Assembly (NCBI GenBank): GCA_963576565.1
Contig: OY755048.1
Coordinates: 7,336,136-7,400,135 of the forward strand
Length of the DNA stretch: 64,000 nucleotides
Direction of reading: 5' to 3'
Source of the DNA: Aspidapion aeneum
Taxonomy: Eukaryota; Arthropoda; Insecta; Coleoptera; Brentidae
Shown here piece by piece: positions 29,034-31,614 of this stretch (within the stretch, counting starts at the first letter, position 1; every line of letters starts with the position of its first letter). The notes beneath the pieces are model-generated. The model saw only the letters and a list, made by a program, of their open reading frames with translations. It was not told the origin of the DNA and made no database searches. Made by a program: the position numbers and the translations under genes.

Positions 29034-31249
29034 AACATCAAATTTTAACTTTTTCAAGTAATCTTTATTATTTTACAGACATTACACAAAAGTTTAAAAT
29101 TTTAGTTGATACAGGTGCTAGTTGTTCTGTTTTTAAACCAAAAACATGTGAGCAATATTTACAAAGATTTCCTGAAAATGTAACTGTCAAAGGCATTTCA
29201 AATGAACCAATTTCAATTAACGAATCAGTTTTAATTCCTTTTACTTTGAAAGATCCTTTTAAAGTACTAGTTTGTGATCTTGACATAGGATTTGATGGAC
29301 TAGTAGGATCAGATTTTTTAAAACATTATAATTGCATTATTGATTATCAAAATAATAAATTGATTACCAATTTTAAAACAGTTCCTTTATATAGAACTAA
29401 CCCAGAACAAAAAGACTTTACTGTAAATAATGAACCAATAAAAAATATAATACAAATAGAAGGAAGAACAGAAAGAGCTTTTAAATTAAAAACAGATAAA
29501 TTAAAAAATACAGAAGTTATTTTACTAGCTCAACAAAAAGACAAATGTTACATTCCTAATTGCATTGTTAAAATAAATGAAAAAGGAGAATTTTGTACAA
29601 CAATTATTAATGCCTATGCAACTACTAAAACGATAAATTTTGATAATTTTGAATTTGAAAATTTACCTAGCAACTCAAAAACAACTGAAGTATGTTTTAA
29701 TCTAAAAGAAAATAAACCAATAATAAGAGAACATGTAATACCAAAGCAATTAAGATTAGATCACTTAAATGACGAAGAAAAAGAAATCATAACATCACTT
29801 TGTCTAGATTTTTCGGATATATTTTACTTAGAAGGAGATAATTTAACTTTTACAAGCGAAATTAAACACTCCATTCACACCAAAGAAACCAAACCAAATT
29901 TTTACAAAGTCCTATCGATATCCTCAAGTACATAAACAGGAAGTAAAAAGTCAAGTTTCAAAAATGTTAGAACAAGGAATAATTCAACATTCTGTTTCTC
30001 CATGGTCTTCTCCAGTATGGGTAGTACCAAAGAAATTAGATGCTTCAGGGAAACAAAAGTGGAGAGTTGTAATTGATTACAGAAAGTTAAATGAAGTTAC
30101 AATTGATGATAAATATCCTTTGCCAATGATATCAGATTTACTTGATCAATTAGGACATTGTGAATACTTTTCAACTTTAGATCTTGCATCAGGATTCCAC
30201 CAAATTGAGGTAGATCAGTTTCAGTTGAAAACGGTCATTATGAATACATTCGAATGCCGTTTGGACTTAAAAATGCTCCATCAACATTTCAAAGAGTTAT
30301 GGACAATATTTTACTTGGTATCCAAAACGAAAGATGTTTGGTATACATGGACGATATTATTATTTATTCTGATACAATTCATGAACATGTCAAAAGACTA
30401 AAAGAAGTTTTTTCTAGATTAAGAAAAGCAAATTTAAAGATTCAACCAGATAAGTGCGAATTCCTACGAAAAGAGGTTGCATATCTAGGTCACATAATAA
30501 CAGATAAAGGTGTAAAACCTAATCCAAATAAAATTTCAGCTTTGAAAAATTTTCCAGAACCCAAAAATCAAAGAGAAATTAAAGGTTTCCTAGGATTAGC
30601 AGGATATTATCGACGATTTATCCAAGATTTTGCCAAAATTTCTAAACCATTAACTAAATTATTACAAAAAGATCAACCATTTGTTTTTGACGCAACTTGT
30701 AAAGAATCTTTTGAAAAATTAAAAAATATTTTGACAACCAGTCCAATTTTGATTTATCCTAATTTTAATGAACCTTTTCTTTTAACAACTGATGCCAGTG
30801 GTTATTCAATAGGATCTGTGTTATCTCAAGGACCAATAGGAAAAGATTTGCCTATTGCATATGCCTCAAGAACTTTAAATAATACGGAACAAAAATATTC
30901 TGTCATTGAAAGAGAACTTTTAGCCATTGTATGGTCAGTCAAACACTTCAGACCATATTTATACGGAAGAAAATTTAAATTAATCACGGACCATCGTCCT
31001 TTAACTTGGTTATTCTCAATTAAAGATCCTGGAAGTCGTTTAGCCAGATGGAGATTAAAACTGGAAGAATATGATTATGAAATAATCTATAAACCAGGAA
31101 AAATTAACAAAAATGCAGATGCCCTTTCTAGAATAAGAATTGAAGAAAACATAAACAAAATATATCACTCAGTAATGTTTCAAAAGCAAATTAATGAAGA
31201 AAAATTTTATATGGAAACTTATTTGATGCACCTCAAAATTTTTCATTAG
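29033..31249 (+). pseudogene. pol: Pol: protease, reverse transcriptase, RNase H (frameshifted)
   Basis: Open in the -1 frame relative to gag. The aspartic protease has LVDTGASCSVF near 29100. RT has QHSVSPWSSPVWVVPKK, STLDLASGFHQIE and YMDDIIIYS (metal-binding Asps). RNase H has LTTDASGYSIGS, ERELLAIVW and TDHRPLTWL. The RT is broken twice, near 29.92 kb and near 30.23 kb, where the frame leaves and then returns. The frame ends at a stop at 31247 just as the macrodomain frame opens, which indicates a third one-base indel around 31195-31213. Confidence 0.9.
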
Positions 31250-31614
31250 CACATTGTGTATCAAAAGATTTAAAAATGAAAAAGGGAATTGCAAAAGAAT
31301 TCAAAGAAAGATTTGATAATGTAGATTATTTAAAAGAACAAAATAAACAAATTGGTGAAATAGCAACTTTACAACTATCCAACAGAACTATTTACTATTT
31401 AGTTACAAAAGAATTATACTATCAAAAGCCAACATATGATACAATTTATCAAATTTTGCAAAACCTAAAAAATATTCTTCTGCAAAATAACGAGAAATAT
31501 TTAGCTATACCCAAAATAGCATGTGGTTTAGACTCACTCGATTGGAACATTATATTGGCAATGATTAAATCAACCTTTCAATCAAGTGATATACAAATAA
31601 ATATTTATATTTTA
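31213..31614 (+). CDS. TARG1/OARD1-like macrodomain within pol
   Basis: About 134 codons with the hallmarks of the cellular ADP-ribose hydrolase TARG1/OARD1: GNLFDAP, SLAHCVSKDLKM, GIAKEFKERF, IYYLVTK, KPTYDTIYQIL and IPKIACGLDSLDW, ending DIQINIYIL. The catalytic Lys (in LVTK, codon 31408) and Asp (in CGLD, codon 31531) are both kept, 41 residues apart, as I count between Lys84 and Asp125 of the human enzyme. TARG1 removes ADP-ribose from acidic residues and deacylates O-acetyl-ADP-ribose. It lies about 25-30 residues after RNase H. Activity in the element is inferred, not shown. The domain has no internal stop or frameshift. Confidence 0.88.

Follow-up and report, generated by a model that had tools for sequence, protein, structure and literature searches.

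Does a retroelement of a beetle carry an enzyme for removing ADP-ribose inside its Pol polyprotein and, if so, what might the element gain from it? This question was raised by a 64,000-nt stretch of the Aspidapion aeneum genome (contig OY755048.1, positions 7,336,136 to 7,400,135; hereafter the window, whose own coordinates are used below), in which an earlier note had placed a TARG1/OARD1-type macrodomain between the RNase H and integrase of a Ty3/Gypsy element. Positions 31213–31614 (+), which translate into 134 residues without a stop, encode a complete macrodomain of the TARG1/OARD1 class. Human OARD1/TARG1 aligned with all 134 residues (E = 3.2e-33); five OARD1/C6orf130 sequences matched at E values of ca. 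3e-33 to 4e-33, and the next different protein reached only 0.027. Judged by these scores, the resemblance to TARG1 is far beyond chance. The motif blocks that the note had listed (GIAKEF, LVTK, KPTY and IACGLDSLDW) were all present in the translation, and its spacing of 41 residues between the catalytic Lys and Asp was borne out, with the Lys of LVTK encoded by codon 31408–31410 and the Asp of CGLD by codon 31531–31533. We equate this Asp with D125, which we take to be the catalytic Asp of human TARG1. The catalytic Lys of the human enzyme is K84 (PMC8501950).

The proposed search with macrodomain profiles gave a divided answer. Pfam Macro scored 18.9 bits, under its cut-off of 22, so that this general profile alone is blind to the window domain, whereas the comparison with TARG1 succeeded in both sequence and fold. 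An AlphaFold model built on an alignment of 23 sequences had a mean predicted local distance difference test score (pLDDT) of 94.2, and its first eight Protein Data Bank (PDB) matches in Foldseek were all TARG1 (best template modelling score (TM) 0.97, root-mean-square deviation 0.9 Å, 44% identity), bearing out the predicted TARG1 fold. In sequence as well as in the Foldseek comparison, the domain was nearest to TARG1 and not to MacroD, PARG or the coronaviral and alphaviral macrodomains.

The domain is not confined to this locus. The genome (1,286,157,303 bases in 149 contigs) was searched with the window macrodomain, and the 150 rows listed (150 of 293 candidates scored) included at least 133 matches with ≥ 82% identity, a few rows being pieces of one copy. 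By our own count from the table, 37 of these 133 matches were stop-free and located in frames of 1429–1480 aa. Among the matches listed, those of the window element's family (family 1) were dense at C4:66.9–69.5 Mb and C5:64.1–64.6 Mb. The 30 loci ranked best by macrodomain match (L089–L118, window copy included) served as the family-1 sample. Reverse transcriptase, RNase H, macrodomain, a pre-integrase linker, integrase zinc-binding domain and integrase core followed one another in this order in 29 of the 30, the exception being the window's own copy, which had no integrase core. All six parts shared a single stop-free frame at 18 of the 30 loci, which in this stretch of pol are intact relatives of the kind that the earlier note had advised looking for. 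A genome search with the linker (150 of 732 candidates scored) yielded at least 134 matches that were ≥ 75% identical. In 122 of them a macrodomain match lay no more than 1.5 kb upstream, and in 96 the distance was exactly 127 nt. Of the 12 linker matches without a nearby macrodomain, six had one 1.8–6.9 kb upstream, and one (L159) held a piece of the domain. The macrodomain is no one-off because 122 of the 134 family linker matches carry it. A chance resemblance, or a single insertion into a dead copy, would agree with the broken state of the window copy and its missing integrase core, but the E value of the TARG1 match, the number of genome matches and the proportion of linkers with the domain rule this explanation out to the point where we give it virtually no credence.

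Close relatives without the domain were also found. Eight loci of other linker matches were fetched and checked for a macrodomain. Five of them (L152–L156) had no macrodomain match at E ≤ 1; they were 77%–82% identical to family 1 in RNase H and 52%–55% in the linker, and the distance from RNase H to linker was 159–171 nt versus 639 nt in family 1. The other three (L157–L159) had a macrodomain, broken or partial. RNase H likewise runs to the linker without a macrodomain between them in protein P0002, and some macrodomain-less copies of the sister families lie in frames of 1328–1334 aa. In a tree of the linker only, macrodomain-bearing and macrodomain-less rows fell on opposite sides of one branch (100/99). 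Because of this spacing and this single branch, the macrodomain is, as far as the sequences indicate, a lineage-specific insertion of ca. 0.47–0.48 kb with a single gain or loss among the rows of the linker tree. The concern that relatives lacking the domain would mark a one-off insertion was therefore half justified: close sister families do lack it (five of eight loci), but the insertion is widespread in family 1. The existence of such sister families is also what would be expected if a captured cellular sequence merely rode along as a functionless hitchhiker or spacer and, with the macrodomain-bearing linkers on one side of a single branch, one chance capture would be enough for the arrangement with the domain between RNase H and integrase (architecture A).

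A further 38 loci (33 from 17 weaker rows of the window query and from rows of a fly OARD1 query, plus L084–L088) extended the comparison beyond family 1. Loci L119–L124 (subfamily A2; 51%–61% identical) had the window arrangement, whole or in part: reverse transcriptase and RNase H preceded the macrodomain in five of the six, the linker came after it in five of the six, and L120 and L123 had the full series from reverse transcriptase to integrase, but spread over more than one frame. A second arrangement was recognised at 23 of the 38 loci, where a reverse transcriptase match lay 0.5–1.6 kb downstream of the macrodomain; no reverse transcriptase was found within reach of the macrodomain at nine of the 38. 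A single open stretch of 857 aa at L087 contained an aspartyl protease (38–127), Macro (254–357) and reverse transcriptase (615–776), and protease and macrodomain shared one open stretch at L140 and L142. Pfam Macro was seen in three of the ten stretches scanned (above the cut-off in L087, below it in L136 and L142), the remaining macrodomains of these stretches resting on tblastn matches to the window domain; a sub-threshold Pfam row for L129 was taken as chance. Judging from these matches, the TARG1 domain of other families lies upstream of reverse transcriptase and, where this was tested, downstream of the protease. The macrodomain was followed by an OTU cysteine protease domain in the same stretch at L125 (6e-13) and L146 (6.3e-14) and in a separate stretch at L134 (2.5e-11), and by its coordinates an OTU match also accompanies the TARG1-bearing locus L127. 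OTU alone is common in the genome, with at least 150 rows (150 of 303 candidates scored). In proteins P0036 (Rhamnusium bicolor) and P0013, a TARG1 domain was identified by eye together with an RNase H-like end and a pre-integrase-like stretch, and P0005 is a tandem macrodomain protein with the Asp absent from either copy. Two loci were unusual: L150 had two macrodomain matches 0.8 kb apart, treated as one locus, and at L145 the macrodomain occupied a frame of 150 aa and no reverse transcriptase was found within reach; this may be an orphan or a cellular copy.

The catalytic pair was well conserved. Lys and Asp were both kept at all 30 family-1 loci and at 36 of the 38 further loci, although a stop lay inside the macrodomain match at 10 of the latter. 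Among eleven representatives, 30%–57% identical pairwise, a motif search recovered the pair in nine, always 41 residues apart; His replaced Asp in one. Between L093 (family 1, subfamily A1) and six A2 loci, the ratio of nonsynonymous to synonymous substitutions (dN/dS) of the macrodomain was 0.27–0.32 in all six pairs, with dS near 1, compared with 0.09–0.11 for RNase H in five A1–A2 pairs; silent sites of linker and integrase were at or near saturation in these pairs. These ratios indicate that the macrodomain is under purifying selection, weaker than that on RNase H. Among the 30 family-1 copies, the corresponding polymorphism ratio (pN/pS) was 0.04 for the macrodomain, 0.25 for reverse transcriptase–RNase H, 0.17 for the linker and 0.87 for integrase, the last value being inflated by copies not aligning there, the window copy included. 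These values were not used as proof because the 30 copies were picked as the best-ranked by macrodomain match. Of the grounds that the earlier note had named for abandoning its proposal, loss from the Lys/Asp pair was confined to two of the 68 loci, and the dN/dS between subfamilies indicates constraint rather than relaxed evolution. Retention of the pair across such divergent lineages, the dN/dS of ca. 0.3 and the recurrence of this class of domain elsewhere in pol all speak against a functionless hitchhiker, which we regard as very unlikely.

The domain could also be a reader rather than an eraser: it would bind ADP-ribose or poly(ADP-ribose) and tether the integration complex to poly(ADP-ribosyl)ated, broken or decondensed chromatin, with hydrolysis incidental. 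Its position adjoining integrase suits a targeting module, and P0013 and P0005 retain the macrodomain fold without the Asp. However, 66 of the 68 loci examined in the beetle's own genome have both catalytic residues, which pure binding would not require, and the second architecture puts the domain upstream of reverse transcriptase, away from integrase. We rate a reader as an alternative of some weight, but an unlikely one.

The source of the domain was sought in a tree built from 46 selected rows (18 own-genome loci and 28 others, including four dipteran OARD1 sequences and no beetle OARD1), in which domains of architecture A were labelled A and those upstream of reverse transcriptase B. The B rows were on one side of a branch (96/94) and the A rows together with Rhamnusium on one side of another (86/86; 97/92 in another tree that had an altered P0009 row), whereas P0013 grouped with P0005 (93/79). 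Neither A nor B fell inside the four dipteran OARD1 rows. In approximately unbiased (AU) tests, a common clade of A (without P0013) and B was not rejected (p = 0.292), nor was the placement of P0013 with A (p = 0.199), though it was 16 log units worse. The trees are thus compatible with different numbers of captures. Capture from a cellular OARD1, as the earlier note had assumed, would fit. The host OARD1 gene was not identified with the fly OARD1 query, for which 150 of 270 candidates were scored and an intron-bearing gene could be hidden; the matches were all near full-length and single-frame, and those inspected resembled element copies. A protein search with an alignment as query gave four matches, one being the query, and no long Pol among its length-filtered results. 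The named linker and integrase relatives came from Anoplophora and Diabrotica and the RNase H–macrodomain protein P0036 from Rhamnusium, all three being beetles, as suits a beetle host.

What, then, might the domain do? We consider it probable that it is a working ADP-ribosylhydrolase, made together with Pol, that shields the nucleic acid or proteins of the element from host ADP-ribosylation. In this view, a Ty3/Gypsy element with an Env has taken a TARG1-class macrodomain into its Pol and would have retained it as an active enzyme. In many relatives it shares one open frame with reverse transcriptase–RNase H and integrase, and it is therefore probably packaged with Pol into the particle, where it would travel with the reverse-transcription and integration complex. 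Some retroviruses offer an analogy, with a dUTPase in Pol between RNase H and integrase. The packaged domain would strip ADP-ribose set by host transferases on the ends of element complementary DNA (cDNA) or RNA or, alternatively, on Gag, Pol or ubiquitin-marked proteins, allowing reverse transcription and integration to proceed. In vitro, PARP1–3 can attach ADP-ribose to the phosphates of DNA ends, and thymidine-linked ADP-ribose on DNA is reversed by TARG1, K84A being unable to rescue (PMC8501950). Since the product of reverse transcriptase is a linear cDNA whose ends are free, its cleaning is an economical guess. Elements of the second architecture, some with OTU, would use the same module elsewhere in Pol.

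Several observations weigh against a protective eraser. Close sister families exist without the macrodomain, which is thus not essential in general. The domain changes faster than RNase H (dN/dS ca. 0.3 vs. 0.1), and the two exceptional own-genome loci, L138 and L124, are missing one or both catalytic residues. P0013 and both domains of P0005 have no Asp, suggesting that some relatives may only bind. Moreover, among the papers listed on PARPs and retrotransposons, PMC9027574 included, no link of insect PARPs to the element was found. A metabolic or general-purpose enzyme, clearing free ADP-ribose esters such as O-acetyl-ADP-ribose irrespective of any specific host defence, is another candidate, since the nearest solved relative was deposited as O-acetyl-ADP-ribose deacetylase 1. 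Being built into Pol at two positions would, however, bring a soluble metabolic enzyme little advantage, and the host possesses its own macrodomain exons (C5:95.07 Mb), which to us look MacroD-type; this reading is in our estimation distinctly unlikely.

A broader proposal can be made tentatively, although we hold it to be more doubtful than the enzyme itself: a guild of Ty3/Gypsy elements in one beetle genome may have equipped Pol, at two positions, with ADP-ribosylhydrolases of the TARG1 class, some lineages adding OTU as a second eraser. Together the two might clear particle and cDNA of ADP-ribose and ubiquitin, or of ADP-ribosyl-ubiquitin. If true, this would point to an undescribed insect defence against reverse-transcribing elements based on ADP-ribosylation. 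A TARG1-class domain in the Pol of a high-copy, Env-bearing element and in the pol of other families of the same genome suggests that reverse transcription or integration in insects is under pressure from ADP-ribosylation; in the lineages with an adjoining OTU domain, ubiquitin may be involved too. The question of which ADP-ribose mark, on which molecule, a retroelement must erase becomes testable.

Comparison with described systems places the element within a known kind, retroelements with a captured accessory enzyme; what appears to be new, by the literature search given below, is a TARG1-class domain in the Pol of a Ty3/Gypsy element. TARG1/OARD1 itself (C6orf130; terminal ADP-ribose glycohydrolase, PDB 4j5r) corresponds to the whole window domain with Lys and Asp aligned, but was solved as a single-domain protein of ca. 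150 residues, whereas the window domain is embedded between RNase H and integrase. P0002 and P0004 (Anoplophora glabripennis) share the linker and integrase family (53%–54% identity over approximately half of the 360-aa query); P0002 differs in having no macrodomain, and the records of P0003, P0004 and P0008 do not include the RNase H side. A reported parallel is found in teleost epsilon-like endogenous retroviruses with macrodomain open reading frames (Basta et al. 2009, as cited in PMC4977317). These are likewise reverse-transcribing elements with a captured macrodomain, but that account describes additional open reading frames, whereas the window domain lies inside the Pol of a Ty3/Gypsy element. 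Ginger1 transposases with OTU or Ulp1 combine a gypsy-type integrase with a de-modification enzyme, as do the OTU loci of the window genome, and OTU domains also occur in Helitron proteins (PMC2836005); Ginger1 elements are, however, DNA transposons, and the word macro is absent from the main text of that paper. A literature search for macrodomains in Ty3/Gypsy, LTR (long terminal repeat) or errantivirus elements, mostly by title and abstract start and covering sources other than bioRxiv and most subscription papers, led to the fish retroviruses but to no Ty3/Gypsy case among the papers listed, in agreement with the earlier note, which knew of no well-described case in this pol position.

Viruses provide the other comparison. 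Macrodomains of coronaviruses, togaviruses, rubella virus, hepatitis E virus and iridoviruses, alone or in a polyprotein, have been proposed to act against PARPs and are described as MacroD-type (PMC7729036), whereas the window domain is TARG1-class. A counter-PARP role of the window macrodomain is plausible. Arthropod-associated viruses in BFVD have a TARG1-like fold (Kadipiro virus VP8, 46% identity, TM 0.96), with further such matches, among those listed, in flavi-like, virga-like and negev-like thrips viruses; unlike the window element, no named row among the 50 matches listed was a retroelement, many rows being nameless. Viral contigs of IMG/VR gave no locus when searched with the single sequence P0001; searched with alignment A3, 146 stretches encoded TARG1-like domains, 80 loci (L001–L080) were kept, and four of them entered the trees.

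The window copy itself lies on the + strand between LTRs at 26773–27113 and 33496–33837, which are 98.83% identical over 342 columns (three mismatches, one gap). Directly after the 5' LTR stands TGGCGCAGTCG, by eye a possible primer-binding site, and the purine-rich tract GCGGGGGAGT directly precedes the 3' LTR. An open frame that is Gag-like and has a single CCHC-type knuckle (27711–29033; PF03732, E = 0.001; zf-CCHC_3, E = 0.02) and a protease frame with VDTGAS, heading towards reverse transcriptase (28913–29935; Asp_protease_2, E = 0.0029), matched their profiles under the cut-off. The N-terminal part of reverse transcriptase (29847–30401; PF00078, 3.9e-9) is in a different frame from the C-terminal part, which continues into RNase H (30209–31249; PF00078, 1.3e-25; PF17917, 3.4e-40). 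The macrodomain follows in the frame of 31198 rather than that of 30209 used by RNase H, and then the linker, common to the macrodomain-less relatives P0002 and L152–L156 (31615–32136; 47% identical to the P0003 linker, E = 8.7e-42 over 31720–32136). The integrase zinc-binding domain is reduced to its first 46 residues (32140–32277; PF17921, 0.0018, under the cut-off; tblastn, 3.8e-17), and no match to the integrase core or C-terminal part was found anywhere in the window at E ≤ 0.001. Since the integrase ends at 32277 without a core, the complete macrodomain–integrase series is seen in relatives only. The placement claimed for the domain thus stands on its RNase H side and for the start of integrase, but not for a whole integrase, and the claimed architecture Gag-PR-RT-RH-macro-IN-Env is matched from reverse transcriptase to integrase by the 29 family-1 loci described above, with Gag and protease below the cut-off in the window. 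Downstream of the linker lie an Env-like frame of baculovirus F-protein type (32198–33013; PF12259, 6.9e-24, profile positions 178–405 of 609, the N-terminal part of the profile unmatched) and a C-terminal Env-like frame whose translation has a hydrophobic run resembling a membrane anchor (32938–33408; no Pfam family above the cut-off). The LTRs and, in relatives, the order of reverse transcriptase–RNase H before integrase place the element in Ty3/Gypsy, and its baculovirus-F-related Env agrees with errantiviruses, that is, insect endogenous retroviruses. With pol segments in different frames and no integrase core, the window copy is dead; its near-identical LTRs indicate only recent copying, perhaps helped by intact relatives.

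Other features of the window were minor. To the right of the 3' LTR, an inverted repeat of 103 nt at 34477–34757 has arms 94% complementary and 75 nt apart. Two nearly identical reverse transcriptase frames, which we take to be of non-LTR type, occur at 40894–41766 (+; PF00078, 7.6e-11) and 62961–63998 (−). On the minus strand, a GIY-YIG match exactly at the cut-off (7420–7863) is presumably Penelope-like, and a Gly/Pro/Met-rich frame of 510 aa (50916–52448) with no Pfam match at E ≤ 0.01 seems to us to resemble BCL9/legless. A mariner-like transposase frame was also present at 2693–3826 (−), with DUF4817 at 4.1e-8 and DDE_3 under the cut-off.
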